Shown here: positions 28,420 through 48,403 of the stretch, in pieces
How the letters are laid out: every line of letters begins with the position of its first letter
How positions within the stretch are numbered: position 1 is the first letter of the stretch
Source: Oscillatoriales cyanobacterium
GTDB lineage: Bacteria > Cyanobacteriota > Cyanobacteriia > Cyanobacteriales > Microcoleaceae
Direction of reading: 5' to 3'
Assembly (NCBI GenBank): GCA_004293365.1
Contig: RDYN01000009.1
Location: forward strand, 1-64,000
DNA: 64,000 bases
Position numbers and translations under genes: made by a program
Notes under the pieces: generated by a model
Databases searched by the model: none
What the model was told of the DNA's origin: nothing
The model's input: only the letters and a program-made list of their open reading frames with translations

Positions 28420-28530
28420 AGCTGCGATAAAATTATCTCAAGTAGCAGGTTTACCTTCTGGGATACTCAACGATATCGATGGTATTTCAACTAATGCTGG
28501 CGTCATATTTGTACAAATGGAAACTAATTA
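28420..28530 (+). pseudogene. Possible coding remnant
   Basis: One plus-strand frame ends LSQVAGLPSGILNDIDG, ISTNAGVIFVQMETN and stop, which is protein-like. No start codon is present in a usable position and the frame is short. It could be the tail of a decayed gene that overlapped the exosortase end. The rest of 28179-28527 shows no gene. Confidence 0.3.
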
Positions 28531-29364: not shown

Positions 29365-29525
29365 TTTGATATTAGTTATTAGTTGAGAGATTAGATGGTG
29401 TCATTTAAATAATACCCAGATAATAGGAAAGCTGGTTTCTTGATGAAACCAGATTTTGAGAGAGATCTAAAAGTAATTATTTTGGGGTCAAGCCCTGATG
29501 CAAAACCCCTGAAAATGATGGTTGT

Positions 29526-30191: not shown

Positions 30192-30738
30192 GATTAATAC
30201 CTTAGATTTGCAATTTTGCTGGACTTATGTTTGTTTATTTCACATCTTTAATCTAAACCGAAGCACAGGTAAATGCAATAGTTTTTGATAAAGTTTTGAT
30301 GAAGTTTTTGGCGATGAAGATTCTCCGAAAAATTACCCAGATTGTCGGTATCGATGGCCATACTTAGGGGTTTTCTCTTACGCACGTAGATTTTGATTTT
30401 AACAGCAGCAACGGCTGCAATCAGCAAAAAACACAGTGTAACCTATGTTGATTGAAGGTTATCCGACACGCTCGACTCATTTTCAACCCAGATAACTTAG
30501 CTATCAGACAATATCCTTGGGATAATACCGCTGCGGAAGTAAAAGTCGGTGAAACACAGATATGGAGATTGCTGCGCTGTTCGCTCCGGTCAGCAATGAT
30601 ACGCAAAACCGTTAATCCAAGCATATTGAGTTATAATTTAAAAAGAGGGCGAGTGACCAGGATGCAAGTAAAACATCTGGCGCTAAACTGCTAGAGAAGT
30701 AACAAGCGCAGTCAGCACGAGTTAAATTATCTTTGATT

Positions 30739-32853
30739 ATGGTCAACCGTCTTGCTCAATCCCAAAGCCTTTACCTGCGGAAACACGCGGAAAATCCGAT
30801 CGACTGGTGGCCCTGGTGCGATGAAGCGTTAGAAACGGCCCGCAGCCAAAATAAACCGATTTTCCTGTCGATCGGCTACTCTAGCTGCCACTGGTGTACC
30901 GTGATGGAAGGGGAAGCGTTTTCCGATCGCGCGATCGCCGAATACATGAATTCGCAGTTTGTACCGATAAAAGTCGATCGCGAAGAACGCCCGGACATCG
31001 ACAGCATATATATGCAAGCTTTGCAAATGATGACGGGCCAAGGCGGTTGGCCGCTCAACGTTTTTCTCACTCCCGACGAGCGAATTCCCTTCTATGGCGG
31101 CACTTATTTCCCCGTAACTCCGCGCTACGGACGCCCCGGATTTTTAGAAGTGTTGCAATCAATTCGCCGCTTTTACTACACAGAAAAGCGCAAATTGCAA
31201 GCTTTCAAAGGAGAAATTTTAGACAACCTCCATCAGTCGGTACTGCTGACAGCAGCAACCGCAGAATTAAATCGCGAAATCTTCCAAAAAGGCTTAGAAC
31301 TCAATACCGGAATTATTGCCGGCAGTAACCCCGGGCCCAGTTTTCCAATGATGCCCTATGCTGAGCTAGCACTGCGGGGAACGCGCTTTAATTTTGATGC
31401 AAAATATGACAGCAAACAAGTCTGCACTCAACGCGGCTTAGACTTAGCCTTGGGCGGCATTTACGACCACGTTGCGGGGGGATTTCACCGCTACACGGTT
31501 GACGCGACTTGGACTGTGCCGCACTTTGAAAAAATGCTCTACGATAACGGTCAAATTGTTGAGTATTTAGCGAATTTGTGGAGTGCGGGGATTGAAGAGC
31601 CTGCTTTTGCAAGTGCGATCGCGCGGACAGTAGAATGGTAGAAGCGAGAAATGACCGCGCCGAGTGGTTATTTCTACGCTGCACAGGATGCCGACAGTTT
31701 TACCCCCCCAACCCCCCCTTACCAAGGGGGGGCAACGGGGGGGTCTGAACCGGAAGAAGGAGCGTTTTATGTTTGGACTTACACCGAACTACAAACGCTG
31801 TTAACTGTCCAGGAATTTGCGGAAATCCAAGAACAGTTTGACGTGAGTCGCAGCGGCAATTTTGAAGGCAAAAATGTATTGCAGCGCCGGCATCCGGGAA
31901 AACTCAGCGAAACGGTAGAAATGGCTTTAGCTAAACTTTTTGCTGTGCGCTACGGCGGCAGTCCAGATACTGTGGAAATCTTTCCGCCAGCCCGCAACAA
32001 TCAGGAAGCTAAAAACGACAGTTGGCCGGGGAGAATTCCCGCAGTTACTGACACGAAAATGATTGCTGCTTGGAATAGCTTAATGATTTCGGGTTTGGCG
32101 CGGGCGGCGGCTGTTTTTGGAAATTTTGAGTATTTGGAATTGGCTGTGAAAGCTGCTAATTTTATTTTAGACAATCAGTGGATTGACGGGCGGTTTCAGC
32201 GGCTGAATTATGACGGACAATCGGCGGTGGCGGCGCAGTCGGAAGATTATGCTTTGTTTGTGAAAGCTTTGTTGGATTTGCATCAAGGGAGTTTGATGTT
32301 AGGAAACGCGGAAGCAGCACAGCAGTTACCAAGTTCTCAGTTTTGGTTGGAGAAAGCTGTGCGGGTACAAGATGAGTTTGATGAGTTTTTGTGGAGCGTG
32401 GAATTGGGCGGGTATTACAATACTGCTAAGGATGCTAGCGGGGATTTGTTGGTGCGGGAACGCAGTTATACTGACAATGCTACTCCGGCGGCGAATGGAG
32501 TTGCGATCGCCTCTTTGGTTCGTTTGGCGCTGCTGGGCCAAAATTTAGAATATCTCGATCGCGCCCAACAAGCTTTGCAGGCTTTCAGCAGTATTGTCCG
32601 AGATAGTCCCCAAGCTTGTCCCAGTCTGCTTTCGGCTTTGGATTGGTATCACCATTCTACCCTGGTTCGCACTTCGCCAGACCAGATTTCTGGGTTGATT
32701 TCGCGGTATTCTCCGACTGCTGTCTGTCAGATTGAGACTGATTTGCCTGAAGGTGTTATCGGGTTAGTTTGTGAGTGTTTGACTTGCAAAGAACCTGCGA
32801 AAAATCTAGAGATGCTGTTGGCAGAAATTCTGCACAGTCAAACGCGGGTATAG
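30739..32853 (+). pseudogene. Thioredoxin-domain DUF255 protein (YyaL/SPATA20 family), interrupted by one stop
   Basis: The two halves are in one frame, 30739-31641 and 31651-32853. The first has the DUF255 thioredoxin-like region (AENPIDWWPWCDEAL, SCHWC and WPLNVFLTPD); the second has the glycoside-hydrolase-like alpha/alpha barrel part. Between them TVEW-TAG-KREMTAPSGYFYAA shows a single in-frame TAG, probably from TTG (Leu). A 17-18 residue insertion (TPPTPPYQGGATGGS) replaces the family's DADSEGEEGAFYVW junction and matches the C-rich palindromic repeat. So two separate events affect this gene. Without readthrough the product is truncated. Confidence 0.9.
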
Positions 32854-33405: not shown

Positions 33406-34602
33406 ATGGCAACAGCTATTCTCGACCTGGAAATCTCCCAACTACCGCCAGAAATAGCGGTTGAGGAGCGTTACAGCAAAGCCTTGGTTTTAATTAGACT
33501 GCACGGAAAACCGATCGGTCAAGCGACATTGCCTGCAGTCGGAGGTCGCATAGACGGCTCCCAATTGCGGGAAACTCTCATGAATGCAGTGGGCGATAAC
33601 CTTTGGAAAAATTGGCTCTACGATGCCCTAGAATGGGACGAACGCGGCCCTGTGCAGGCAATGCCCGCAGCCACTGTAGCGGTTTGCACGCGCGATCGCC
33701 CGGAAGATTTGCAGCGCGCTCTTGAAGCGTTTATGCGGCTGCCCGATGACGGTCAGGAATACTTGGTAATTGACAATTGTCCCGCCACGGAGGCGAGCAG
33801 GGAATTGGTCGAAAATTACCCAAAAGTCCGCTACGTGCGCGAGGACGTACCGGGCTCCAGCGCTGCCCGCAACCGAGCTTTACGCGAAGCTAAACACGAT
33901 TTCGTTGCGTTTACAGATGACGATGCCGTGCCAGATCCGAATTGGTTGCGATCGCTCTTGCAAAATTTTAGCGATCCGCGCGTGATGTGCGTGACGGGGC
34001 TGGTGATGCCCTTGGAACTCGAAACCAAAGCACAAGAATGGTTCGAGCGCTATAGCCCCCACGGGCGCGGCTTTTATCGGCAAGTTTTTGATGGGGCGCG
34101 CTGCAATCCTCTGGTTGTGGCTCCGGTGGGTGTTTCGGCGAGTATGGCTTTGCGTAAAAGCGCGATCGACTCGATCGGCCTGTTTGACGAAGCTTTGGGG
34201 GCGGGGACGCCGACTGTCGGGGGCGAAGACTGCGAATTGTTTGCCCGCATTTTGCGATCGGGCTACCGCATTGTCTACGAACCGAGAGCCTTGAGTTGGC
34301 ACCGCCACCGGCGCACCTGGGAAGAATTGGAAAAAACGCTGCACGGCTACGGCATCGGAGTCTATGCTTTTTGGACTCGGATGTTTGTCATCAACCGAGA
34401 ATTTAGTGTGCCTCTATTAGCTTGGGGATGGCTGCGACAAAAACAAATTCCTGAATTAGTTGCTTCTTTGCGAAAGCAGCCGGAGTCGGTTCCGAGCGAT
34501 TTGCTGTTAGCTCAATTGCGGGGCTGTGTTAAGGGCCCGATGGCTTATTTTGCTTCTCGCAAAGGGTTGCAGGAAGTTAAGGAAGAAGTCAGCAGTCAGT
34601 AG
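33406..34602 (+). CDS. GT2 glycosyltransferase 1 of polysaccharide locus
   Basis: 398 aa. A short N-terminal module (residues 27-66: LVLIRLHGKPIGQA, LRETLMNAVGDNL) is followed by a family 2 glycosyltransferase domain: VAVCTRDRPEDLQRALEAF, acceptor-proximal VIDNCPA, and the nucleotide/metal motif VAFTDDDAVPDPNWL. A further conserved GGEDCELFARIL and HRHRRTWEELEKTLHGYG follow. It probably transfers sugars from nucleotide donors to a growing lipid-linked or polymer chain at the membrane. The C-terminal codons (VSSQ) run into an STRR tract that contains the stop codon. Confidence 0.93.
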   Translation: MATAILDLEISQLPPEIAVEERYSKALVLIRLHGKPIGQATLPAVGGRIDGSQLRETLMNAVGDNLWKNWLYDALEWDERGPVQAMPAATVAVCTRDRPEDLQRALEAFMRLPDDGQEYLVIDNCPATEASRELVENYPKVRYVREDVPGSSAARNRALREAKHDFVAFTDDDAVPDPNWLRSLLQNFSDPRVMCVTGLVMPLELETKAQEWFERYSPHGRGFYRQVFDGARCNPLVVAPVGVSASMALRKSAIDSIGLFDEALGAGTPTVGGEDCELFARILRSGYRIVYEPRALSWHRHRRTWEELEKTLHGYGIGVYAFWTRMFVINREFSVPLLAWGWLRQKQIPELVASLRKQPESVPSDLLLAQLRGCVKGPMAYFASRKGLQEVKEEVSSQ

Positions 34603-34764
34603 TCAGTAGTCAGTAGTCAGTAGTCAGTAGTCATTAGTCAGTAGTCAGTAGTCATTAGTAAGATGAGCATCTCAATGAATTTAAAAACCATTTTTTATAA
34701 ATGCTGTCCCGCTCGCTTGCGGATACATAAGTGATGTCCCCGCTCGCTTGCGGATACATAAGTG
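34590..34764. repeat. STRR (AGTCAGT) and a 28-bp direct repeat
   Basis: Heptamers gtcagta run from 34590 to about 34660 and include the stop codon of the GT gene. A direct repeat gtccccgctcgcttgcggat then acataagtg occurs at about 34703-34731 and 34736-34764. Confidence 0.8.
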
Positions 34765-34868
34765 CCAGGGGACACCACTAATACAACAGCCAAACTGAGA
34801 TGAGCGCAAATTAAAAAGTAAGAGGGACAAAGTAAGAGGAAAAAGTGTTTTAAAGTTAAATCACCAAC

Positions 34869-34911
34869 TACCAATTACCAATTACCAATTACCAATTACC
34901 AATTACCAATC
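34869..34911. repeat. STRR heptamers (ACCAATT) upstream of GT gene 2
   Basis: Six tandem units of accaatt stop 10 bp before the start codon at 34921. Confidence 0.9.
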
Positions 34912-34920
34912 AAATCTAAT

Positions 34921-36237
34921 ATGAATAGAGAAAATCCAACTGTTAGCGTAATTATTCCCAGTCACAATCGAAGTTCTTCGCTGCGGCGCGCTCTTGATGC
35001 TTTGCAGTCTCAGACTTATCCGATCGACCTCATGGAAGTTACAGTAGTCGCAGATAACTGCATTGACGATACTTTGGCAATGCTACAAGACTACAAAGCT
35101 CCGTTTAAGCTGCACGCGATCGAGGTAAATTGCCGGAGTGCAGCAATTGCTCGCAATACGGGCGCGGCTTCGGCTAGCGGAGAATTGCTGCTGTTTCTGG
35201 ATGACGATATCGAAGCAATGCCGCCCTTGGTGGAAAGCCACGTTCGCACTCACCAAGAACGTCCTGGCTCTGCTGTTATGGGCCCTTACCCGCCCAAGTT
35301 GCAAGGGAGCACTAGATATTTTGATGTGGAAGTGCGGGCTTGGTGGGAAGAAAAATTTTACCAGATGAGCCGCCCCCATCACAGGTTTGAGTACCAAGAT
35401 TTGCTCAGCGGCAATCTTTCTCTGGATGCAAAACTGTTTGCTCGTCTCGATGGCTTCGATTCGGCTTTCGGAAACTGCGGCGGGGAAGATTACGAGTTTG
35501 GGGTGCGCTTGTTGAAAGCTGATGTACCTTTTGCGATGGCTGCGGGCGCTGTGGGCTATCATTACGAACACGAAACTAACAATCTCGATCGCTCTTTTCG
35601 CCGAGCTCGTCAAGAAGGGCGATCGGATGTTTCGATCGGTCACAGACACCCGGAACTCAGACCCCTACTGCACATCAAAGACTACGAAATTCCTTATTCT
35701 TTAGCCGATAAAATTTTGTCTGCCGTGGCGTTTGTCTGGCCTGCGGGGGTGGATTTGCTGGCGGCGGTACTGAGAAAATCTCTGGATGTTCTCGAAAGTT
35801 TGGGGATGCGGACAACTTGGCGGTGGCTGCGGGGGAAATTGCGCGGTTATTGGTATTTCCGGGGGGTGATTGATGAGTTGAAAACTCGATCGGCAATTTC
35901 GAGTTTTATGCAAGGTGGGCCGGCCCGCGCCGATTTGAGCGATCGCGAAATTGAGATCGATTTGCAGCAAGGTTGGGAAGCAGCAGAAAGGTCGATCGAC
36001 GCTGAACGGCCCGATGGCATTTATCTGTTTTACGGCGAACTTCCCGTCGGCCACGTTCCTCCCAAATTCGGTGTCGAGCCGCTGCGGGGCGTCCACCTGC
36101 GTTCAATTTTGGCAAATCTCGTGTCGGATGAATTGCTAATTGCGATCGCGGTTAACGGTATGCCAAAAACTACTGAAACTGCTCTCGAAAACCCTCTAAT
36201 TGCTTTGGAAAATAATTATGAGTTGGCAGTTAAATAA
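34921..36237 (+). CDS. GT2 glycosyltransferase 2 of polysaccharide locus
   Basis: 438 aa. A family 2 glycosyltransferase domain is at the N terminus: VSVIIPSHNRSSSLRRALDA, VVADNCIDDTL and the metal motif LLFLDDDIEA; a catalytic-type GGEDYEFGVRLL follows. Residues 366-405 carry the locus-wide module in C-terminal position (YLFYGELPVGHVP, LRSILANLVSDEL). A helix-rich region lies between. It is soluble or peripheral, since no clear membrane helix is present. It is followed by an STRR tract (about 36242-36273, aatgggt units). Confidence 0.93.
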   Translation: MNRENPTVSVIIPSHNRSSSLRRALDALQSQTYPIDLMEVTVVADNCIDDTLAMLQDYKAPFKLHAIEVNCRSAAIARNTGAASASGELLLFLDDDIEAMPPLVESHVRTHQERPGSAVMGPYPPKLQGSTRYFDVEVRAWWEEKFYQMSRPHHRFEYQDLLSGNLSLDAKLFARLDGFDSAFGNCGGEDYEFGVRLLKADVPFAMAAGAVGYHYEHETNNLDRSFRRARQEGRSDVSIGHRHPELRPLLHIKDYEIPYSLADKILSAVAFVWPAGVDLLAAVLRKSLDVLESLGMRTTWRWLRGKLRGYWYFRGVIDELKTRSAISSFMQGGPARADLSDREIEIDLQQGWEAAERSIDAERPDGIYLFYGELPVGHVPPKFGVEPLRGVHLRSILANLVSDELLIAIAVNGMPKTTETALENPLIALENNYELAVK

Positions 36238-36241
36238 TTAA

Positions 36242-36364
36242 TTGCTAATGGGTAATGGGTAATGGGTAATGGGGAATAACTGGTTCCAAGGCTGTGCTTG
36301 ATAACGAATAAAAGTCTTCCTGATGACCAATGACTAATGACTAATGACTAATGACTAATGACTT
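36242..36364. repeat. Two STRR tracts upstream of GT gene 3
   Basis: Units of aatgggt at 36242-36273 and of atgacta at 36325-36362. A ribosome-binding site (taggagc) lies between the second tract and the ATG at 36394. Confidence 0.85.
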
Positions 36365-36393
36365 CTTCTTACCACTATTTTTAGGAGCAATTT

Positions 36394-37638
36394 ATGGGCA
36401 TAAAACTGCTGAAACTAGAGTTTTCAGAACCGATAAATCCGATTCGCGGACTTGAGAAATATGAAAAAATCCGCCTCTTGGTATGCTACCGGGGAGTGCC
36501 TCTCAAATGGGTGGAAATATTGAACGATCCTTGGCAGGCAATGATTGGGGCCGATCGCGTGCGATCGACAATTGTGGCCCAATTAGGCAAGGAATTGGCA
36601 AAAGCAATTCTCCCTCTTCAGTTGGGCCTGCAAACAGAGCCAAATTATCCGCTGCCGCCGATTAGCGTGGTCATCTGCACGCGCGATCGCACGGACTTGC
36701 TCAAAGGCGCTTTGGAAGCAATTCTTGCCGTGGACTATCCCGATCGCGAAATCATCGTCATAGACAACGCTCCTTCCAACACCAGCACCGCTGAATTGGT
36801 CGCGCGATTGCCTGTACGCTACGTCAAGGAAGAACGGCCAGGATTGGATTGGGCGCGCAATCGCGGCATCGCTGAAGCCAGCCACGAGATTGTTGTTTTT
36901 ACAGACGACGACGTGCGGCCCGATGTCGGTTGGCTGCGGGGAATGGCTGCGGGTTTTGCCGATCCGGAAATTATGGCAGTTAGCGGTTTAGTGGCGCCGG
37001 CGGAACTCGAAACAGAGGCTCAAACTCAATTTGAATTCGGCTATGGGGGGATGCTGCAATATCTCCACAGTTTTAAGGTTGATGGTAGCAAGCTTTCGAC
37101 GAAGAGCTTGCTGTGGGCCAGCGCTTACGGAGTCGGCGCCAATATGGCTTTCCGGCGGCAAGTGTTCGCCGAAGTTGGGACTTTTGACCCGGCTTTGGAT
37201 GTGGGGACTCCGACTCGGGGGGCTGGGGATATCGAGATGTTTCACCGGATTTTGGCGAAGGGATACTCGACTTTCTACGAGCCCAGAGCTTTTGTGTGGC
37301 ACGTACACAGGCGCAGCGGCGAGGCTTTGAGCCGGCAGTTAAGGGATAACGGGCGCGGTTTTGGGGCTTATTTGCTGACGTGCGATCGCAACCGCACAGT
37401 CAGCCGCCTAGAAATTTTGCATTTTGCTTGGTCTCAGTGGCTGAACTGGTGGCTGCTGCGCCGTTTGATACGTCCGGGCTGGTTCCCCCGCAAATTGGTA
37501 GCGAGCGAGTTGCTGGGAGCTCTGCAAAGTCCTTTTGCTTACAGGGAAGCGCAGTTGCAAGCGCAGCGGTTGGCCGCTCTCCCGGATCCAGAATTGCAGG
37601 AAGTTGAAGGGCCGGTAATTGTTGGGGGTGTACAGTGA
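36394..37638 (+). CDS. GT2 glycosyltransferase 3 of polysaccharide locus
   Basis: 414 aa with the same plan as GT 1: an N-terminal module (residues 27-68: LLVCYRGVPLKWVE, VRSTIVAQLGKEL), then the GT2 domain with VVICTRDRTDLLKGALEAIL, VIDNAPSNTST, VVFTDDDVRPDVGWL and GAGDIEMFHRILAKGY. The similarity to GT 1 across the whole length suggests a duplication. Its stop overlaps the GTG start of the permease gene by 4 bp (GTGA), so translation is coupled to the exporter. Confidence 0.93.
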   Translation: MGIKLLKLEFSEPINPIRGLEKYEKIRLLVCYRGVPLKWVEILNDPWQAMIGADRVRSTIVAQLGKELAKAILPLQLGLQTEPNYPLPPISVVICTRDRTDLLKGALEAILAVDYPDREIIVIDNAPSNTSTAELVARLPVRYVKEERPGLDWARNRGIAEASHEIVVFTDDDVRPDVGWLRGMAAGFADPEIMAVSGLVAPAELETEAQTQFEFGYGGMLQYLHSFKVDGSKLSTKSLLWASAYGVGANMAFRRQVFAEVGTFDPALDVGTPTRGAGDIEMFHRILAKGYSTFYEPRAFVWHVHRRSGEALSRQLRDNGRGFGAYLLTCDRNRTVSRLEILHFAWSQWLNWWLLRRLIRPGWFPRKLVASELLGALQSPFAYREAQLQAQRLAALPDPELQEVEGPVIVGGVQ

Positions 37639-38426
37639 TCAATGCAGTAAAACTGGTAAATCGGCGCAAAATTGCTCATTTTTTCGATTTGCTGCGGGAG
37701 TTGGTCGATCGCGACATGAAACTACTCTACAAGCGATCGACCCTGGGGATTGCTTGGACTCTGATCAATCCGCTGTTGCAGTTGGCGGTTTTTTCCTTTG
37801 TATTTCGATCGGTAATTCCGGTAAATATTCCCCAGTTTTCTTCCTTTGCCTTCAGCGGTTTATTAATTTGGACTTGGAGTCAGACGGCGCTGTTTCAAGC
37901 AACCGGACTAATTACTGGCAACCTGCCTTTAATCAGACAACCAAATTTTCCGACAGCTATTTTACCTGTAGTGACAACTACCACCGGATTGATTCACTTT
38001 TTACTGGCGCTGCCGGTGCTAATTATCTTTTTGGCAATGGACGGAATTCAGCCAAGTTCGGCGCTGTTTTCCCTGCCACTTTTGATGATTATTCAATTCA
38101 TTTTGACCGTGAGTTTGGCCTATCCCCTCGCTGCCATTAACGTGACTTTCCGCGACACCCAGCACACTTTGGGCGTGTTGTTGCAGATGCTTTTTTACCT
38201 AACTCCAATTTTCTACGACCTCAAAAGCGTGCCCAAAGAATTTCAGCCTTTATATCAGTTAAATCCGATGGTGCCGCTGATTGAAGCTTACCGAACAATA
38301 CTGCTCAAAGGTATTCAGCCGGACTGGCCAACCCTGCTAATTCTGAGCTTGGTTGTGGCTGCTCTTTTGCCGCTCGGACTAGGAATTTTTAGACGACAAA
38401 GCGATCGATTTGTGGAGGAATTATAA
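37635..38426 (+). CDS. ABC-2 type polysaccharide export permease (Wzm-like)
   Basis: 263-aa membrane permease with six hydrophobic segments. The N-terminal amphipathic region REVDR-type (LRELVDRDMKLLYKRSTLGI) and the conserved LTPIFYDLKSVPKEFQPLYQ are typical of Wzm/TagG/RfbA permeases. It exports completed or lipid-linked glycans across the inner membrane. The start is GTG overlapping the preceding GT gene, and the ATPase gene begins one base after its stop codon. Confidence 0.94.
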   Translation: MINAVKLVNRRKIAHFFDLLRELVDRDMKLLYKRSTLGIAWTLINPLLQLAVFSFVFRSVIPVNIPQFSSFAFSGLLIWTWSQTALFQATGLITGNLPLIRQPNFPTAILPVVTTTTGLIHFLLALPVLIIFLAMDGIQPSSALFSLPLLMIIQFILTVSLAYPLAAINVTFRDTQHTLGVLLQMLFYLTPIFYDLKSVPKEFQPLYQLNPMVPLIEAYRTILLKGIQPDWPTLLILSLVVAALLPLGLGIFRRQSDRFVEEL

Positions 38427-40499
38427 ATGCGTCAAGCTATTGTTGTCAACGGTTTGGGGAAACGTTTCAACCGCTACAGTGCCGATCGACCTCTGACAAT
38501 TATGGAGGCCGCATTGTGGGGTTGGTGGCGGATGAAACCCCAGGCAAATTTTTGGGCGCTGCGGGATGTCAGCTTTACAGTTTCTCCCGGGGAAATGCTG
38601 GGAATTCTCGGCAAGAATGGGGCGGGAAAATCGACACTGCTGCAACTTATCGGCGGTATCGGCCGCGCTGAAGAAGGCACGATTAAAGTTAACGGTAGAA
38701 TTGGCGGTTTGTTGGATTTGGGTGCTGGTTTTCACTCAGATTTAACTGGTAGAGAAAATGTGTTTGTGGGTGCGGTGGTAGCAGGTTTGACTCGCCGGGA
38801 AGCGGCGCGGCGGTTTGACGCTATTGTTGAATTTGCGGAATTAGAACAGTTTATCGACAGCCCGCTGCGGACTTACAGCACGGGGATGCGAATGCGGTTG
38901 GCATTTTCGGTGGCAATTCATACCAATCCAGAGGTGCTGTTAATTGATGAATATTTGTCGGTTGGGGATGTGGCTTTTCAAACTAAATGTTTGAAAAAAA
39001 TCGACGAGTTTAAGAATCAAGGTGCCGCGATTGTTTTAATTTCTCACAGTGCGGCGCAAATTCAAAAAACTTGCGATCGCGGTATGTGGCTGCGGGAAGG
39101 TAAAATCATGGCTTACGGCGAGACGGAAGTCGTAGTCGGTCAGTATTTGTCGGAAATGCGATCGGAAACTGACAAGCGCACTCCCATGCGTCCTCCTCAA
39201 GTTACAAGTACGGGATCGGAATTGCGAGTTAACGAAAACCGTTTCGGTTCTTTGGAAGTAGAAATTACGGATGTCAAAGTGTTACCGGATGAGGAAATAG
39301 ACAGCGGTGACACAATTACTATTGAAATTCATTACGATGTTCCAAAACCAATTTCTGCTGCGATTTTTGGCGTAACAATCAGCCGGGAAGACGGTCAAAG
39401 TTGTTTTGAGACTAATACTAATCAAATGGGCCGGTTGATACCGCTGGCGAAAGGTAAAGGCAAAATCCGGCTGCACGTAGACAGGTTGGATTTAGGAAAC
39501 GGGCAGTATTACGTGAATCCTGGGGTATACGAGAAGAGTTGGGCCTACGCTTACGATTATCAGTGGCACGTTTATCCGCTGTACGTGCGATCGACTGTAC
39601 ACCAAAAAACCATCCTTTGTCCGCCCTACCGCTGGGAATTTGACGGCAAAATGCAGGTTGCAGATTTGCCAGAAACAACTGACAAAGTTCACGCTTTGAA
39701 CAAAAATAATCCCAGCTACGCCAAGATTTCCACTCAGTTGAAAAATAAGCAGTCACCAGACTTTTTAATGATTGGCGCTCAAAAGTGCAGCACCGAGGCT
39801 TTATACGGCTATCTCGACAATCACTTGCAAAATATCAAAGAAGGTGCTAAGCAAGTACACTTTTTTGAATTGAATTTCGAGCGCGGTGTTGAGTGGTACA
39901 GCAAGCAGTTGACGCGGAGTGTCGCGGGTGACAAGGTGCTGCTGTGGGAGATGACTGCTTACTATATTTACCATCCCTTGGTGGCCGAGCGAGTTTACAA
40001 GTGCTTCCCGGATGTTAAGCTGATCGTGATGCTCCGCAACCCGGTACAAAGGGCGTGGATGCACTATCATTTAGAAGTGGCGATCGGCTGCGAAAAGCTG
40101 GATTTTGAAAAGGCGATCGCATCTGAACCCGACAGACTCAAAGGTGAGATCGAAAAAATCAAAGCCGATGAAGGCTATTACAGTTTCAATCACCAGCATT
40201 ATTCCTACTTATCGCGGGGAATTTATGTCGAACAAATCAAGAATTGGCTCGATTATTTCCCCCGGGAACAGTTGCTAATCCTCAAAAGCGAAGACTTTAA
40301 CAAAAATCCGGGTAACGTGTTTTCTAGGGTGTTAGATTTCTTAGACATCAAGGTGAGTGCTGTCAAAGAATATCAGGGGAATAATACTGAGGATTACAGT
40401 AATATGCCTGCGGAAATCGAACAAGAATTAACCAATTATTTTAAGCCTTACAATCAGGAGCTTTCTGATTTGTTGAAGGAAGATTTTAGTTGGAGTTAG
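38427..40499 (+). CDS. Polysaccharide ABC-transporter ATPase (Wzt-like) fused to a sulfotransferase
   Basis: 690 aa in three parts. (1) ABC ATPase, residues 1-240: Walker A GKNGAGKST (62-70), signature TYSTGMRMRLAF (149-160), Walker B VLLIDEYLSVGD (170-181), switch His in ISHS. (2) Wzt-C-like beta-sandwich, about 270-405, which in relatives recognises the glycan. (3) Sulfotransferase, about 444-690: PAPS 5'-loop DFLMIGAQKCSTEAL, 3'-phosphate motif LRNPVQRAWMHYH, and YLSRGIYVEQIKNWLDYFP. PAPS-dependent sulfation would be coupled to export. The loop reads KCSTEAL rather than KxGTTxL, so catalysis needs checking. Confidence 0.92.
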   Translation: MRQAIVVNGLGKRFNRYSADRPLTIMEAALWGWWRMKPQANFWALRDVSFTVSPGEMLGILGKNGAGKSTLLQLIGGIGRAEEGTIKVNGRIGGLLDLGAGFHSDLTGRENVFVGAVVAGLTRREAARRFDAIVEFAELEQFIDSPLRTYSTGMRMRLAFSVAIHTNPEVLLIDEYLSVGDVAFQTKCLKKIDEFKNQGAAIVLISHSAAQIQKTCDRGMWLREGKIMAYGETEVVVGQYLSEMRSETDKRTPMRPPQVTSTGSELRVNENRFGSLEVEITDVKVLPDEEIDSGDTITIEIHYDVPKPISAAIFGVTISREDGQSCFETNTNQMGRLIPLAKGKGKIRLHVDRLDLGNGQYYVNPGVYEKSWAYAYDYQWHVYPLYVRSTVHQKTILCPPYRWEFDGKMQVADLPETTDKVHALNKNNPSYAKISTQLKNKQSPDFLMIGAQKCSTEALYGYLDNHLQNIKEGAKQVHFFELNFERGVEWYSKQLTRSVAGDKVLLWEMTAYYIYHPLVAERVYKCFPDVKLIVMLRNPVQRAWMHYHLEVAIGCEKLDFEKAIASEPDRLKGEIEKIKADEGYYSFNHQHYSYLSRGIYVEQIKNWLDYFPREQLLILKSEDFNKNPGNVFSRVLDFLDIKVSAVKEYQGNNTEDYSNMPAEIEQELTNYFKPYNQELSDLLKEDFSWS

Positions 40500-40507
40500 G
40501 AGAATAG

Positions 40508-40620
40508 TTTTTAACCGCAGAGAGCGCAGAGAGCACAGAGAGAAGCATGAATTATACTTTTTTCTTCTCTCCCTCTTTCTTCTCTCCCTCTGTGTCCTCT
40601 GCGCTCTCTGCGGTTAAAAA
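40508..40620. repeat. Long inverted repeat after the Wzt-sulfotransferase gene
   Basis: A perfect 24-bp inverted repeat: arms 40508-40531 (TTTTTAACCGCAGAGAGCGC...) and 40597-40620, flanking 65 bp. With T/A-rich ends it could terminate transcription in either direction. The CCGCAGAGAGCGCAGAG motif is a common dispersed repeat. Confidence 0.85.
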
Positions 40621-40740
40621 AATCGTAATTGCTCAACTACCCCCCCTCCCCTGAAACTGCCTTCTAGACACAGCTTCAGATTGTGAATTTTCAGCAAAAA
40701 GCTTCTTCTTCAATAAAATTTACGAGAGAATGAGGGTTTC

Positions 40741-40783
40741 AGCTTTCTGATTTGTTGAAGGAAGATTTTAGTTGGAGTTAGGA
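40741..40783 (+). repeat. 43-bp duplicate of the upstream gene's 3' end
   Basis: Identical to 40459-40501, the last 14 codons plus stop of the ATPase-sulfotransferase gene. The 239 bp between the copies hold the inverted repeat. This looks like a target-side duplication around inserted DNA. Confidence 0.9.
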
Positions 40784-40836
40784 TGTTTGTGAAACCGCAG
40801 ATGAACGCGGATAAATACGGTAAAACATAATTCCTG

Positions 40837-40897
40837 TAGGGGCGGGTTCGCCAACCATATTTAATTTTTACCAACAATCTAGATAAACCCGCCCCCA
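40837..40897. repeat. GGGGCGGGTT inverted repeat
   Basis: GGGGCGGGTT near 40839-40848 pairs with AACCCGCCCC near 40886-40895, across 37 bp. It is a dispersed-type repeat upstream of the next gene; nothing coding is seen in 40500-40945. Confidence 0.75.
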
Positions 40898-40945
40898 CCC
40901 AACGAAAGAAATTAGATCGCCCATTTATCAATATAAAATCTAACA

Positions 40946-43444
40946 ATGAAAAAACGAATATTTTTAGTGGGTTCTCCAAGAAGCGGTACTACAATCCTTC
41001 AGAGTTTATTGGCCGCTCATCCCGAAGTTATTTCTTTTCCTGAATCTAAGTTTTTTCACTATTTATTGTACGACAAGTTTGTGGCAAAGTTGCCAAGTAG
41101 GATGGAATCTTTTTTTAAGGATGAGATTAATCGCCCTGAACTTTTGCAAGGTTTTGATGACAGTCAAAGTGTGGAAGCTAAAGTTAGTTGGTTTGTGGGA
41201 GTTTTGGATGGTTTGGCTGCGGAACAACACAAAAGCATTTGGTTGGAAAAAACGCCGGAACACATCTATTTTATTCCTGATATAGAGCGCTTTTTGCCGG
41301 ATGTTAAGTTTATACATATTTTGCGAAACAGTATGGATTGCATCGCTTCTATGCATGAGGCTACTCGGGATTTTAACGAATTGTGGGGCGGTGGTTGGGA
41401 TTTAGCTCGCTGTATCGATGGATGGAAATATGCAGTATTAACTAGCCATAAATATCTTGATAAATCTAATCATATCTTGGTTAAATATGAAGAGCTTGTA
41501 GACAATAAAAAGTTAGTCTTAGAGGATATTTGTAATTTCCTTGGAATTGAGTATGATGCTGGAATGCTGATTAATTATAAAGAAAAAGCAGCTAAGTTGA
41601 GTTTAAATTTACCTTGGCATCAAGGAATTGCCAGGGATATTCAAAGCACTAAGGTTCACAAATATCATGGAGTTTTTAAAGATAGTGAAATTAAAAATAT
41701 TCTAACTCATATCGAGTGGGTAAATTCGAGAATTGCCTACAAGGTTACGGTGGAGGTGAGCGAATTCATTGCGGATATTAAGGTTCCACAAATATTCGAT
41801 CGCGTTTGCTGTACAATCAAGTTAGCAGGTGTTGAACTCGAAGTTAGGGATTTGCAGCTTAATACTATACCAATCCTTTGGCTGCTCCTTCGACAATACA
41901 ATAGCATGGCTGGGCTCTTATTTCTACGCAAGTCCCTTATTGAATTGCCAGTCTGTGACGGGATTGTGGCGGGTGCGGTGTTGGCAGATGCGATCGCAGC
42001 CCAGTTTGCTTGGCCAATTCTCTCACGCTTCTTTCAAGACAATCCCGAAACTCCCCAACTGGAATGGACGCTATTTTTGCAAGAAATCTGGAATCGTCCG
42101 CATTGGGTTGAGGCTAATTTTTACAATCCCGAAACCGCCGATGAAGCAGTCACAATCACTCTCGATGGAGACTTGATTGCTGTGGAAGTTAGCGCAGAAT
42201 TGCCTAACATCAAAGTTGAGCTTGCTGAAATAGACGTGTTGGTGAAAATAGGCGGTGTAGCGATCGCTATTGTAACCGTTGCGGTGGAAAATAATTTTGT
42301 TTCTGCTCAAAAAGTGCGATCGACAATTATTCGACATATCGGTTTTGAGTTGTGCGTCGCCACCGTGCGAGAAGCTTTGCTTGGCAAATCATTTGATAGT
42401 GAGACATCGTTGCGATCGCGCTTAGCCTCTGCCGCCCAACAAAGGTCGAATCAGCCCGACTGGTTGAATGCAGCTAGTTCTGGAGGCATTTACCCCCAAG
42501 ATGCGGTGATGTTTGGCCGGCGATGCGGTGCAACAGGAACCAGTGTCAGCCGTCGGGCCGCACTTCCAGCCCAGGCGCTGCGGGAATTAACGAAATCAGC
42601 AGCAATCGCAGGGGAAGCGATAATCCAAATTCCCAGAGAAAACGAGTTGCCAAAGCAAGTATTTTACGCACCGGAAATCATTTGGCAAAAATCGCCTTAC
42701 CGAGAAGTTTCTCACTCAGTGAAACCTCAAATATTTGATAATGATAGCATTACAAAAAAACTTCCTATTCTCGCCTACCGTCGTATTTCTCCCGATGGTT
42801 TAAATGCAATTACTCCGCAGGTGTTTGAACAGCAGTTGCACTATCTCAAAGAGAATCGTTATTACAGTGCAACTTGGGAAGATTGGCAAAATGCAAAACT
42901 AACTAAAACTCCTTTACGAGGTAAAGCTGTATTACTTACTTTTGACGGTGGCTATCTCGACTTTTTTACCTATGCTTTCCCTTTGCTAAAACGCTTTGAT
43001 TTTACAGCAACTGTTTTTCTAGTAGCCGAGTCAGTAGGAAAGACAAATAGTTGGGAAAAAGCAGATACTGAACAAGTGCAGTTAATGGGATGGCCAGAAA
43101 TTCGGCAATTGCAGGATGCAGGGATTGAATTTGGTTCCATGTCTGCCACTTATCAGCCTCTGACTGCATTGTCACCCACAGAAATTGTGCGCGAAGGGGC
43201 TAAATCCCGCGCTATCTTGGAACGGGGATTAGGGAAATCTGTGAGAGTTTTTGCTTATCCTTACGGGAATGTCGATAAAATTGTAGCACATTTAATCGGA
43301 GCAAGTGGGTATAGTTTCGGTATATCATATAGATCGAGTACGAGCAATTTTAACGATTCTTTAATGTCGCTACCGCGCATTCAAGTCACAGCAGAAAATT
43401 TCTGGGAATTGGTTCGTAGTGAGGACTTTAGTCCGCATTCATAA
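40946..43444 (+). CDS. Sulfotransferase - linker module - degenerate polysaccharide deacetylase fusion
   Basis: 832 aa. Residues 1-265: sulfotransferase with PAPS loop FLVGSPRSGTTILQSLL (9-16 core) and 3'-motif ILRNSMDCIASM. Residues 280-480: beta-rich region containing the locus module (431-470: VLVKIGGVAIAIVT, VRSTIIRHIGFEL). Residues 600-820: NodB-type deacetylase fold, LLTFDGGYLDFFTYAFPLL and VFAYPYGNVDK. In NodB enzymes the motifs are TFDDGY and HTxxH; here the second Asp is Gly and both His are Met/Tyr (GSMSATYQ, 730-737), so deacetylation is unlikely. The last ten residues (VRSEDFSPHS) come from an inserted palindromic repeat. Confidence 0.9.
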   Translation: MKKRIFLVGSPRSGTTILQSLLAAHPEVISFPESKFFHYLLYDKFVAKLPSRMESFFKDEINRPELLQGFDDSQSVEAKVSWFVGVLDGLAAEQHKSIWLEKTPEHIYFIPDIERFLPDVKFIHILRNSMDCIASMHEATRDFNELWGGGWDLARCIDGWKYAVLTSHKYLDKSNHILVKYEELVDNKKLVLEDICNFLGIEYDAGMLINYKEKAAKLSLNLPWHQGIARDIQSTKVHKYHGVFKDSEIKNILTHIEWVNSRIAYKVTVEVSEFIADIKVPQIFDRVCCTIKLAGVELEVRDLQLNTIPILWLLLRQYNSMAGLLFLRKSLIELPVCDGIVAGAVLADAIAAQFAWPILSRFFQDNPETPQLEWTLFLQEIWNRPHWVEANFYNPETADEAVTITLDGDLIAVEVSAELPNIKVELAEIDVLVKIGGVAIAIVTVAVENNFVSAQKVRSTIIRHIGFELCVATVREALLGKSFDSETSLRSRLASAAQQRSNQPDWLNAASSGGIYPQDAVMFGRRCGATGTSVSRRAALPAQALRELTKSAAIAGEAIIQIPRENELPKQVFYAPEIIWQKSPYREVSHSVKPQIFDNDSITKKLPILAYRRISPDGLNAITPQVFEQQLHYLKENRYYSATWEDWQNAKLTKTPLRGKAVLLTFDGGYLDFFTYAFPLLKRFDFTATVFLVAESVGKTNSWEKADTEQVQLMGWPEIRQLQDAGIEFGSMSATYQPLTALSPTEIVREGAKSRAILERGLGKSVRVFAYPYGNVDKIVAHLIGASGYSFGISYRSSTSNFNDSLMSLPRIQVTAENFWELVRSEDFSPHS

Positions 43445-43573: not shown

Positions 43574-44800
43574 CTAGAAACTTTTTCTCAGCCGCTGCAT
43601 CAATCCCTGAAATTTACGCCACAAATAACCGCCAAATCCTCTGGAAATCTTCTCAAACTTATAATAAAATAAAATATCCATGATATCTTCAGTTTTCATA
43701 TACTTTAAATAAGAAATCATTTTATCTGTCAGTTCATCATTCACATCATCAATATACTTTCTCACCGCCAACCTTTCCGAAATATTCCATTTCCCATCAA
43801 ACTTGCGGTGCATTTGGGTTTCATAATCCCGAAAATCTGAGATTTTCCCATCCAAATATTTTTCAATGTATTTCCCAGCGATTTCAGCGCCATCCATCCC
43901 GTGTCTGATACCCTCACCGCCCAGAAAATTAACTGTCGAGACAGTATCGCCGATCGCAATTATGTTATCCTTCCAATAAATATCCTGCAAACCGCGACTG
44001 TATTTCAGCGTTGAACCGTGCTTGTCAATAATTTTATAATTTTTAGACTTCAAATATTCATCAATCAGCAAATCAATATACTGTTTCAGCGGTGACAAAT
44101 GCTTAACCGTTTTGGCATCTAAAAAAATGCGTCCCGCACCAACTTTCAGTCTATTTTGTTCCATGGGAAATATCCAAGAATAACCCTTAGGCATCCATTT
44201 GTCACCCAAAAAGAAGATTAAATCATTGGCATATTTATTGTAAACTTCCGGTTCAACTTCAATTAAATATTCGATGCCGGTTCCCGACAAAAAATTAGGC
44301 TTGTCGTTTTCTTTGTCGTACATAATCGCCCTAGCAAAGCCAGTAGCATCAACCAAGACTTTCGTGCTAACTTTGATAAGTTGACCGTCAGATAACTGTT
44401 TAAATTCTACTGCGGTTTCGCCGTTGGCTTGAGAATGTCCGGTGTAGCGACAACCAAGCCAAACTTCACCGCCAAATCGCTCAACTTCGTCGGCTAAAAA
44501 TGCTCTAAATTTTGCAAAGTTGAGTACAACTCCCAAACTTTCGGGAGATTCCCAAGTTTGAGTAACTTTGCTAGTTTCAATAGTCAGTTTGTGCCAAAAA
44601 CTGCCGATAACTGATTCGGGTAAATCGAATTGAGAGAGGGTTTCTAAAGGTGTGGCGGCGCTGGAAAAGTCATTTTTATTAAAATTGTCGTTTTGTTCTG
44701 CAAGCAAGACTGTGCGGCCTGATTTGGCGAGGATTCTTGCACAGTGACCTCCTGCTGGGCCGGCTCCTACTATTACTATATCAAAACTTTTTAAATTCAT
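43574..44800 (-). CDS. Geranylgeranyl-reductase-family FAD oxidoreductase
   Basis: 408 aa. The FAD-binding Rossmann motif VIVGAGPAGGHCARIL is at residues 9-24, and a second FAD motif IIAIGDTVSTVNFLGGEGIR lies near residue 285. The family (GGR/lycopene cyclase-like flavoproteins) reduces isoprenoid double bonds or acts in related oxidations. The chlorophyll enzyme ChlP is a paralogue; this one lacks close identity, so the substrate is open. It is convergent with the polysaccharide locus. Confidence 0.82.
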   Translation of the reverse strand: MNLKSFDIVIVGAGPAGGHCARILAKSGRTVLLAEQNDNFNKNDFSSAATPLETLSQFDLPESVIGSFWHKLTIETSKVTQTWESPESLGVVLNFAKFRAFLADEVERFGGEVWLGCRYTGHSQANGETAVEFKQLSDGQLIKVSTKVLVDATGFARAIMYDKENDKPNFLSGTGIEYLIEVEPEVYNKYANDLIFFLGDKWMPKGYSWIFPMEQNRLKVGAGRIFLDAKTVKHLSPLKQYIDLLIDEYLKSKNYKIIDKHGSTLKYSRGLQDIYWKDNIIAIGDTVSTVNFLGGEGIRHGMDGAEIAGKYIEKYLDGKISDFRDYETQMHRKFDGKWNISERLAVRKYIDDVNDELTDKMISYLKYMKTEDIMDILFYYKFEKISRGFGGYLWRKFQGLMQRLRKSF

Positions 44801-46495: not shown

Positions 46496-48403
46496 TTACA
46501 CGCTAACTGGAGACTCTTTGCGGCTGAATGTTGCCAAGATGCGATCGCACATTTGCGACGGATTCAATCCCAAACTGGCAAATGACTGCTCTGGTGTAGC
46601 GTGATCCACCAATGTATCAGGTACGCCCAGCCGCATTAATGGAACCAGGATATTGTTATCCATCAAAGCTTCGGCTACTGCTGAACCGAAACCGCCCATC
46701 AAACAGCCTTCTTCCATTGTGACAACTTTGCCAATTCGCTGTGCTAAAGGTAAGATTAATTCCGTATCCAAAGGCTTGACAAAACGCGCATTAATCACAG
46801 TTGCTTCGATGCCGTGTTCGCTCAACATCTCGGCGGTTTGCATTGCCGGATACACCATCGAACCGTAACCTAAGATTAGCACGTCATCGCCGTTGCGGAG
46901 AATTTCCGCTTTGCCGATCGCCAATTCTTCCCAACCTTCTTCCATCAGAGGGACGCCGTAACCGTTGCCGCGCGGGTAACGCATGGCGATCGGGCCGCTG
47001 GTGTGGTTGATGCCGGTGACTACCATCCGCTGCAATTCCGCCTCGTCTTTCGGCGCCATAATTGTCATGTTTGGCAAGCAGCGCAAGTAGGAAATGTCGT
47101 ACATTCCTTGGTGCGTCGGGCCGTCAGCGCCGACAATTCCAGCGCGATCCAAACAGAAGAAAACAGGCAAGTTTTGGATGCAGACATCGTGAACTATTTG
47201 GTCGTATCCCCGCTGCAAAAATGTCGAGTAAATTGCGACAACCGGGCGCATTCCTTCGCAGGCTAAACCTGCCGATAAAGTCACTGCGTGCTGTTCGGCA
47301 ATGCCAACATCAATGTACTGTTTCGGCAGTTTTTCCTGAAGTTTGTCAAGGCAAGTTCCGGTTGCCATTGCAGCGGTAATGCCGACAATTTTAGGATTAT
47401 TTTCTGCTAGCTTGACCAGGGCGTGGGCAAATACTTTTGCGTAGGCTGGTGGTTTGGGTTTGGTGGAAGGAATACCTTTGCCCGTGGCTAAGTTAAAGGG
47501 ATTTTGGGCGTGATATCCTACTTGGTCTTTTTCGGCGATCGCATATCCTTTGCCCTTCACCGTCACCACGTGAACCAACACAGGCCCTTGGATAGTATGA
47601 CCTTGTTTGAAAGTAGCAATTAACTCTTCCAAATTGTGTCCGTCTACCGGGCCCATGTAGGTAAAGCCCAATTCTTCAATTACAGCCCCTACTTTCGATA
47701 CGGCTAAACGTTTCATGCCTTCTTTGAGGCGTTCCATTTCCGGGGTAAAAGTTTCGCCCACAAAGGGAATTTGTTTGAATTGTTCCTCTAAGTTATCTTT
47801 GAGAAACTGTACCGGCTGCGAGAGTCGCATCTTGTTCAAATAGCGGGTAATTGCGCCGACGTTGGGCGAGATTGACATCTCGTTGTCGTTAAGCACTACC
47901 ATCACATTGGTTTTCGGCATATGGCCCGCGTGGTTGATCGCTTCGAGTGCCATACCCCCTGTCAGCGCACCGTCGCCAATGACTGCTACGGTTTTAAAGT
48001 TTTCGCCCTTGAGGTCGCGCGCCATCGCCATCCCTAAGGCTGCGGAGATGCTCGTGGAAGCGTGACCGGCGCCGAAATGGTCAAATTTGCTCTCGCAGCG
48101 CTTGAGATAGCCTGCAACGCCGTCTTTTTGGCGCAGGGTGTGGAATTCGTTATAGCGGCCAGTGATCAATTTGTGCGGATAAGCTTGGTGGCCGACATCC
48201 CAGGTAACTTTGTCGCGATCGAGGTCGAGTGTTTGGTAAAGTGCTAAGGTCAGTTCGACTACACCCAATCCCGGGCCGAGGTGTCCGCCGCTGGCTGCTA
48301 CAGTTTCTAAATGCTTTTCTCGAATTTGTCGGGCAATTTGTTCGAGTTGATGAATCGAGAGGCCGTGTAATTGGTTTGGATGAGTCAGTTCGCTGAGATG
48401 CAT
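46496..48403 (-). CDS. dxs: 1-deoxy-D-xylulose-5-phosphate synthase
   Basis: 635-aa thiamine-diphosphate enzyme that condenses pyruvate and glyceraldehyde 3-phosphate: first step of the MEP isoprenoid pathway for carotenoids, phytol and quinones. The TPP motif [18 protein letters not shown] and the N-terminal [17 protein letters not shown] are clear; the C-terminal transketolase part contains [15 protein letters not shown]. Length is normal for the family. It stands alone, with the promoter region in 48404-48640 (no gene seen there). Confidence 0.98.

Follow-up and report, generated by a model that had tools for sequence, protein, structure and literature searches.

A 64,000-nucleotide stretch of Oscillatoriales cyanobacterium DNA (the window) encodes a polysaccharide export ATPase whose chain continues into a sulfotransferase-like domain. 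This arrangement raises the question of whether the added domain sulfates the glycan as it is exported or serves the exporter in some other way.

An export locus with a fused ATPase

The genes under study all lie on the + strand:

33406..34602, +: GT2 glycosyltransferase a, 398 aa (Pfam PF00535, E 8.1e-23; syntenic in congeners)
34921..36237, +: GT2 glycosyltransferase b, 438 aa (PF00535, E 9.7e-21)
36394..37638, +: GT2 glycosyltransferase c, 414 aa (PF00535, E 6.9e-21)
37635..38426, +: Wzm-type permease (ABC-2), 263 aa (Pfam PF01061, E 2.8e-19)
38427..40499, +: Wzt ATPase fused to a putative pseudo-sulfotransferase, 690 aa (Pfam, frames across genomes, site counts)
40946..43444, +: Sulfotransfer_3 / middle region / degenerate NodB protein, 832 aa (Pfam, motif counts)

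The permease open reading frame (ORF) overlaps that of GT2 glycosyltransferase c by 4 bases, the Wzt ORF starts at the base directly after the permease ORF ends, and a 446-base gap separates the end of the Wzt ORF from the start of the 832-aa ORF. An ABC-2 permease gene and three GT2 genes adjoin Wzt, as expected for a Wzm/Wzt exporter. The locus is best explained as one for ABC-transporter-dependent polysaccharide export in a cyanobacterium of the Microcoleus/Tychonema type and, by homology, would export a lipid-linked glycan through Wzm/Wzt. No counterpart of GT2 glycosyltransferase c was found in L067, L068, or L142.

Pfam resolved the 690-aa ORF into an ABC ATPase, a Wzt_C domain, and a sulfotransferase domain within a single frame:

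38559..38954, +: ABC ATPase domain, residues 45 to 176 (PF00005 ABC_tran, E 9.7e-22)
39231..39596, +: Wzt_C carbohydrate-binding domain, residues 269 to 390 (PF14524, E 1.1e-21)
39747..40496, +: putative pseudo-sulfotransferase domain, approximately residues 441 to 690 (PF00685, PDB relatives, site losses)
39783..39800, +: former 5'-PSB loop, residues 453 to 458, K-C-S-T-E-A (loop alignment, site counts)

The ATPase motifs are intact, with Walker A at residue 62, the signature at 150, Walker B at 171, and the H-loop at 206. When the whole chain was compared with the PDB, the best sequence match was 8dku (E 3e-67, residues 40 to 370). Like the Wzm/Wzt O-antigen ABC transporters (PDB 8dku, 7k2t, 5hno/5hnp, and 6o14), it joins an ABC ATPase to Wzt_C in one chain encoded beside an ABC-2 permease; in contrast to them, it carries ~265 extra sulfotransferase-derived residues after Wzt_C. 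Sulfotransfer_1 (PF00685) matched residues 444 to 653 of the chain (E 1.1e-14), and the best PDB match of the fused domain was the bacterial protein 3rnl (E 1.3e-24), with homology to 3rnl, heparan sulfate 3-O-sulfotransferase (3-OST), and NDST spanning residues 439 to 664. The AlphaFold models were poor (mean pLDDT of 48.2 for the 690-aa chain and 49.8 for the 832-aa chain), although a Foldseek search with the poor 690-aa model listed 3rnl and 3-OST, in agreement with the sequence homology.

The initial annotation had described this gene order and a C-terminal sulfotransferase domain on the ATPase, and both are borne out by the ORF coordinates and the in-frame Pfam match. It had also allowed that the fusion might be an assembly artifact created by a missed stop codon near position 39760, and had suggested listing the genomes that share the domain order. 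That search found the fused frame in the window's own genome and in 25 of 28 same-genus genomes. The junction is open, with no stop, in 26 frames from these 26 genomes, which rules out the artifact; judging by these frames, the fusion is real. The length of the fused domain is constant, and it is full-length in every frame except L020, which begins at a contig end. G026, a congener of 95% completeness, gave no fused match. Microcoleus vaginatus is among the carriers according to a contig pattern scan, the patterns of which were derived from the fused domain and so reach close relatives only.

Distribution of and constraint on the fused domain

Elsewhere in the order, beyond the genus, the same Wzt was unfused in all 15 genomes that gave a match. 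Full-length searches of 243 genomes of the order, and of 386 genomes of the phylum (a set that overlaps the first and in which at most four candidates were scored per genome), returned no fusion outside the genus; such searches would overlook an independently arisen, distantly related ATPase-sulfotransferase fusion without Wzt_C. Only the window's copy, among 127 Wzt_C matches in 116 genomes of the class, sits in a frame longer than 600 aa; the longest frame after it, of 595 aa counted from its ATG in G069, contains ABC_tran and Wzt_C by Pfam and no sulfotransferase. Upon re-examination of 53 loci with sulfotransferases, the only frames combining a sulfotransferase with Wzt were the window's gene, seen in two overlapping loci, and a second copy in G014; the long sulfotransferase frames examined from the same-genus search were a subset of the matches listed. 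The fused domains form one clade (support 100/100) on a long stem (0.84).

The median dN/dS of the fused domain (0.151) was close to that of the ATPase (0.143), whereas absolute dN was higher in the fused domain (0.111 versus 0.074) and invariant columns were fewer (42% versus 66%). By sequence, the fusion arose once among the samples searched, occurs in nearly the whole genus, and is subject to purifying selection. A decaying domain was judged unlikely given this dN/dS and the constant domain length. The domain might instead be an inert, tolerated passenger that is retained only because its truncation harms Wzt folding, as could be argued from the orthologous Wzt proteins outside the genus that do without it and from the lack of a fused match in G026. 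However, a dN/dS near that of the ATPase and a domain kept at full length in all 26 frames bar the one cut by a contig end make this explanation very improbable.

A census of Wzt-linked modules was reportedly made by Mann et al. in 2019 and might mention such fusions. The terms "sulfotransferase" and "Wzt" both occur in PMC4390846, and excerpts of PMC9723792 contain nothing on this fusion.

Active-site losses in the fused domain

The full set of seven PAPS-binding or catalytic sites is retained in 44 of 46 relatives without a Wzt fusion versus 0 of 27 fused copies, a comparison that was not blind, since the sites were chosen after the fused alignment had been seen, and in which the 46 sulfotransferases were hand-picked among the matches listed, are not independent (16 are one same-genus paralogue group), and lie in part in other long proteins. 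Two duplicate rows were left out (L006, which is the gene of L009, and L037, which is that of L117), L119 was counted with the fused copies instead, and L007 and L008 contributed no alignment row; the L020 row lacks the loop region, so that n = 26 at the PSB loop. The literature yielded nothing useful on the 3-OST E90Q mutant, the catalytic base, or pseudoenzyme sulfotransferases, and the site roles below are therefore presumptive.

Position 545, where the Ser that we take to be the 3'-phosphate site by 3-OST numbering is expected, is Met, Leu, or Val in 27/27 fused copies. Arg537, presumably the 3'-phosphate-site Arg, is kept in all 27, but the Arg-Ser pair is broken in every copy by the loss of Ser545. 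In the PSB loop, residue 457 is Glu or Asp in 26/26 copies, and the relatives' residues are retained in 19/26 at position 453, 18/26 at 455, 15/26 at 456, and 0/26 at 457; the fused domain therefore lacks the combination of a conserved Lys/Arg, Gly, Thr/Ser, and nonacidic residue 457 that defines the loop. Glu476, which we assume to be the catalytic Glu of the 3-OST family, is kept in only 6/27 copies and lost in 21/27, with Gln in the window. Relative to 3-OST, NDST, and 3rnl, most or all fused copies carry other residues in the PSB loop and at the positions of the catalytic Glu and the 3'-phosphate Ser.

Of 69 conserved columns in the domain, 47 are retained. For the site counts, a hypergeometric test restricted to six such columns gave P = 0.011. 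Among the fused copies, the PSB loop varies more than the remainder of the domain does (1.0 versus 0.49 bits). Substitutions are concentrated where the cofactor once bound; here, Gly507 has become Trp in 26/27 copies and Ala509 has become Met in 27/27, giving Trp507 and Met509 as new fixed residues. As read from the alignment, the fused domain has lost PAPS-binding and catalytic residues.

These observations bear on two explanations in which the pocket still works. If the domain were an active sulfotransferase with a rebuilt active site, sulfation would be coupled to export, and its clear Sulfotransfer_1 homology, the retention of Arg537 in every copy and of Lys453 in 19/26, and the purifying selection on it would follow. 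The losses at 545, 457, and 476, together with the unusual variability of the loop, nevertheless led us to judge such activity unlikely, and we hold out little prospect for it. Alternatively, the remodeled pocket might bind another nucleotide or a metabolite and switch export on or off. The clustering of changes at the cofactor site and the newly fixed Trp507 and Met509 are consistent with such a regulator, but a loop that varies among the fused copies is a poor fit with a conserved new ligand there, and this alternative is also highly improbable.

We instead read the fused domain as a pseudo-sulfotransferase kept as a noncatalytic module. Since residues needed for the reaction have been lost, a role in holding or checking the sugar chain is likelier than one in sulfating it, and the domain is most probably a further recognition module, for the glycan or its cap, next to Wzt_C.

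The downstream protein and a possible export checkpoint

The 832-aa protein encoded downstream comprises three parts:

40958..41557, +: Sulfotransfer_3 domain, motifs intact, residues 5 to 204 (Pfam, E 1.9e-29)
41591..42745, +: middle region, residues 216 to 600
42914..43315, +: degenerate NodB domain, residues 657 to 790 (PF01522 Polysacc_deac_1, E 3.3e-22)

The Sulfotransfer_3 motifs (PRSGTT, E33, R127, and S135) are kept in 24/24 genus rows. The middle region, which had no Pfam match and no credible PDB match, is also found in L069, L072, and L155. The C-terminal part is homologous to polysaccharide N-deacetylases of the PgaB/IcaB type but differs from them in being joined to a sulfotransferase and in lacking the metal ligands: the Asp at 668 is Gly in 22/22 genus rows covering the site, the His at 732 is Met or Leu in 21/21, and residue 736 is Tyr in 13 of 21 rows and His in the other 8, such that the Asp-His-His triad is broken. 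The ligands have also been lost in a sister genus (L077 and L082) and are kept in two outgroups.

The "degenerate deacetylase" of the initial annotation is thereby upheld. Its broader interpretation stands with respect to the architecture and its conservation but not in having the fused domain couple PAPS-dependent sulfation to export, given the replacement of residue 545 in 27/27 copies, an acidic 457 in 26/26, and Glu476 in just 6/27. The likelier working sulfotransferase of the locus, going by its motifs, is the N-terminal Sulfotransfer_3 half of the 832-aa protein. An APS kinase is present in the genome, although its presence says little, as 11 of 14 control genomes also have one.

The Sulfotransfer_3 gene adjoins the fused Wzt in 24/24 named loci. 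This adjacency, and a fused domain that appears noncatalytic by its sites yet is constrained, would suit a scaffold that holds the sulfating and polymerizing enzymes at the exporter, with the pseudo-sulfotransferase contacting another protein (that of Sulfotransfer_3, a glycosyltransferase, or the second Wzt copy) rather than a glycan. The adjacency could equally be plain genus synteny, however, and the sister genus has the Sulfotransfer_3 protein with an unfused Wzt, which indicates that Sulfotransfer_3 is independent of the fused domain. We consider a scaffold rather unlikely.

Exporters of the Wzm/Wzt kind select their outgoing chains: according to excerpts of PMC11231755 and PMC9445017, a small ATPase-borne domain of the Wzt_C type reads the chain end before export in the systems studied, and a Wzt_C domain lies beside the pseudo-sulfotransferase here. 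We propose that a domain descended from a glycan sulfotransferase was added to the C terminus of the Wzt ATPase and that this domain, now apparently dead, would be a former writer turned reader. In the cytoplasm, the Sulfotransfer_3 enzyme would sulfate or cap the chain on its lipid carrier; the finished chain would be recognized jointly by Wzt_C and the pseudo-sulfotransferase, and this recognition would gate ATP-driven export via Wzm. In favor of the scheme, L160, from outside the genus, likewise joins a degenerate sulfotransferase domain to a sulfotransferase with intact motifs. Against it count the Sulfotransfer_3 protein found with an unfused Wzt in the sister genus, the retention of Arg537 and, in part of the copies, of Lys453 and Glu476, and the higher absolute dN and fewer invariant columns of the domain. 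We give this scheme about an even chance of being correct. A narrower version, in which the domain went from writing sulfate to reading it by losing its cofactor chemistry while keeping its grip on the acceptor glycan, and licenses export of a chain finished by the neighboring motif-intact sulfotransferase, is put forward only tentatively.

In most of the genus, including the desert soil crust pioneer M. vaginatus, the export ATPase bears a second domain that derives from an enzyme and looks dead. If sulfate or the finished chain is what this domain reads, export checkpoints would be seen to evolve from chain-decorating enzymes. Sulfotransferase domain counts can, moreover, overestimate sulfation capacity. 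The xss (synechan) cluster of Synechocystis 6803, as described in excerpts of PMC8205485, is likewise cyanobacterial and combines glycosyltransferases with sulfotransferases; unlike the window's Wzt fusion, it is of the Wzx/Wzy type with separate sulfotransferase genes. The term "Wzt" is absent from the main text of that article, excerpts of which only suggested ABC-route export of a sulfated polymer, in another species and from gene clusters. With the present locus, such export by these cyanobacteria becomes testable.

Architecture and distribution of the fused Wzt

The export genes lie on the + strand in the order three GT2 genes, a Wzm-type permease, the 690-aa Wzt, and the 832-aa protein. 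GT2c and Wzm share 4 bases, and no base separates the Wzm stop from the start of Wzt. In the window, 446 bases lie between Wzt and the 832-aa gene; across 23 fused loci this spacing runs from 72 to 477 bases, a span that depends on start codons picked by hand. The initial annotation had read ATPase, Wzt_C, and sulfotransferase (ST) as a single chain, and a Pfam search of the 690-aa protein, in which all ATPase motifs were located, bore this reading out:

38427-40499 (+): fused Wzt, 690 aa
Wzt residues 45-176: ABC_tran (Pfam)
Wzt residues 269-390: Wzt_C (Pfam)
Wzt residues 444-653: Sulfotransfer_1 (Pfam)
40946-43444 (+): 832-aa protein, comprising a Sulfotransfer_3 (ST3) half, a middle region, and a NodB half

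The genome holding the window comprises 7.3 Mb in 218 contigs, and the nearest named records in a scan with the fused domain were from Microcoleus, Tychonema, and related filamentous cyanobacteria. When 59 genomes were surveyed (this genome, 28 congeners, and 30 others), 25 of the 28 congeners carried the fused frame, as did the window's own genome, and none was among the matches listed for the 30 non-genus genomes; one metagenome-assembled genome (MAG) with 7% contamination, G014, carried two copies. The congeners without the frame were G002 (74% complete), G008 (84%), and G026 (95%), and given the completeness of G026, genuine loss is possible. Among 53 ST-bearing loci that were re-examined, several of them from the 30 others, the only genes that also matched Wzt were the one in the window and the second of the two G014 copies.

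Broader samples gave a similar picture. Matches to the 690-aa chain at E <= 1e-100 were found in 24 of 243 genomes from the order, nine of which belong to the genus and aligned over residues 1-690. The other 15 were unfused: their frames spanned 255 to 454 aa, and 14 of the alignments stopped between residues 405 and 432, the remaining one already at 245; three of the 15 alignments crossed a stop codon. The phylum sample (386 genomes, overlapping the order sample) yielded 6 fused proteins, all from the genus, and 8 unfused ones, while only the window's frame exceeded 600 aa among 127 Wzt_C matches in 116 genomes of the class. A scan of genome contigs returned 27 loci: 24 fused (23 full-length and one ended by a contig edge), which mostly repeat genomes of the 59-genome survey, 2 STs lacking a Wzt fusion, and 1 distant locus. 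Two names among the fused loci point to other genera, "Lyngbya sp. CCAP 1446/10" and "Richelia sp. CSU_2_1", the latter occurring twice; since these sequences group with the remaining fused loci, we take the labels to be naming problems. The Wzt-ST fusion is real and nearly genus-wide.

Cyanobacterial Wzx/Wzy- and ABC-type clusters contain sulfotransferases according to passages of Maeda et al., who suggest an ABC route for another species' sulfated capsule; neither "Wzt" nor "Microcoleus" occurs in the main text of that paper (PMC8205485). No report of a Wzt-sulfotransferase chain was found in the open-licence literature, judged mostly from listings.

Catalytic sites and constraint in the fused domain

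Heparan sulfate 3-OST and 46 relatives without a Wzt fusion served as alignment references for the fused domain, which was scored at seven sites that, from work on 3-OST and NDST, we take to bind PAPS or act in catalysis.

Residues kept at scored sites (other STs; fused copies)
K/R453: 45/46; 19/26
G455: 46/46; 18/26
T/S456: 45/46; 15/26
T/S/N/R457: 46/46; 0/26 (Glu or Asp in fused copies)
E476: 45/46; 6/27
R537: 46/46; 27/27
S545: 44/46; 0/27
All seven together: 44/46; 0/27

Each fused copy has lost 2 to 5 of the seven sites; the window's copy is changed at S455, E457, Q476, and M545 and keeps K453, T456, and R537. On both sides of the conserved Glu508, Gly507 is replaced by Trp (26/27 fused copies) and Ala509 by Met (27/27). 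In fused copies, variability is higher in loop 453-458 than in the remaining domain (1.0 versus 0.49 bits), whereas the other STs show the reverse (0.6 versus 1.45 bits). Given this divergence from 3-OST at presumed PAPS and catalytic sites, we infer that the fused domain no longer performs its former sulfotransferase chemistry. The proposal of a working sulfotransferase on the exporter is therefore not supported, and we correct it to a predicted pseudo-sulfotransferase.

Judged from sequence, the domain nonetheless does not look like one in decay. Columns conserved in at least 85% of other STs number 69; among fused copies, 47 of them still reach that level and 22 fall below it. The block YxSFNHQHYSYLxRGIY (584-600) is almost invariant in fused copies and similar in loci L147 and L148. 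Across 24 coding sequences, median pairwise dN/dS was 0.143 for the ATPase, 0.174 for Wzt_C, 0.291 for the linker, and 0.151 for the ST domain (the ATPase had a median dN of 0.074, the ST domain one of 0.111); invariant columns made up 66%, 44%, and 42% of the ATPase, Wzt_C, and ST domain, respectively. A tree built from 73 STs placed all 27 fused copies in a single clade (100/100), whose stem measured 0.84 changes per site. Nearest to it, on a branch that is not secure (93/82), were L035 and L038, which have all seven sites intact and no Wzt fusion; the L035 cluster contains its own Wzm and Wzt genes. The long stem, kept columns, and low dN/dS together argue for a burst of change at or after the split from L035/L038-type relatives, followed by constraint, a pattern that would fit a domain that has taken on a new, non-catalytic role.

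Outside the genus, L160 (G034:C195:472500-478500, - strand) encodes an 813-aa frame with two tandem ST domains. Degeneration is confined to the first, which has a QQCGVN loop, lacks the Glu, and has Asn replacing Ser; the motifs of the second are intact. This is a second example of an apparently live ST domain fused to a seemingly dead one.

The adjoining 832-aa protein and a possible export mechanism

The likelier working sulfotransferase is the N-terminal ST3 half of the 832-aa protein, in which PRSGTT, E33, R127, and S135 are kept in 24/24 genus rows. This protein adjoins the fused Wzt in all 24 named loci, although contig ends truncate it in three. Its NodB half has lost metal ligands, in keeping with the degenerate deacetylase originally described: residue 668 is Gly in 22/22 covering genus rows, 732 is Met or Leu in 21/21, and 736 is Tyr in 13/21 and His in 8/21. 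The sister-genus loci L077 and L082 have G, L, and Y at these positions, whereas D, H, and H are intact in the outgroup loci L069 and L072. In a UBA9251 MAG (L142:8629-11044), the ST3-NodB gene is broken into two frames inside the ST3 part.

Among 15 loci with an unfused Wzt (L069-L082 and L155), an ST3-middle-NodB protein was nearby in two (L077 and L082) and a GT2-middle-NodS-NodB chain in three (L069, L072, and L155); neither lay within the stretch compared in the other 10. Together with the fused loci, these architectures suggest a possible three-stage series, from GT2-middle-NodS-NodB with plain Wzt, through ST3-middle-degenerate NodB with plain Wzt, to ST3-middle-degenerate NodB with Wzt-pseudo-ST. 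The middle region (window 41591-42745; also in L069, L072, and L155) is ~385 aa long and accompanies NodB in multidomain proteins of more than one kind; the window's copy had no Pfam and no credible PDB match.

In characterised systems, as described in passages of two papers, the chain terminus is recognised and bound by a domain on the C-terminal side of the Wzt ATPase, and export is limited to finished chains (PMC11231755; PMC9445017). By analogy, the ST3 enzyme would sulfate or cap the chain in the cytoplasm, and the pseudo-sulfotransferase may form a second recognition surface beside Wzt_C; the main rival is that the pseudo-sulfotransferase acts as a scaffold. The genome encodes two APS kinases, which by gene content show PAPS synthesis to be within the cell's means; APS kinase was also found in 11/14 control genomes. 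One of the two genes shares its contig with a Sulfotransfer_1 gene located ~5.6 kb away (G000:C13:4794-11466; L157 and L002).

Flanking genes

Other genes around the export locus are as follows:

28528-30191 (-): Cyanoexosortase A gene (TIGR03763), adjoining an ORF with a C-terminal PEP-CTERM-like sorting signal (judged by eye)
30733-32853 (+): thioredoxin-like gene, interrupted by an in-frame TAG codon (31639-31641)
43574-44800 and 46496-48403 (-): geranylgeranyl-reductase-like flavoprotein and DXS

The flavoprotein and DXS genes adjoin the export locus in 6 congener loci, and our guess is that they are linked to a polyprenol carrier. The thioredoxin-like gene is a single 706-aa ORF in the congener locus L063.
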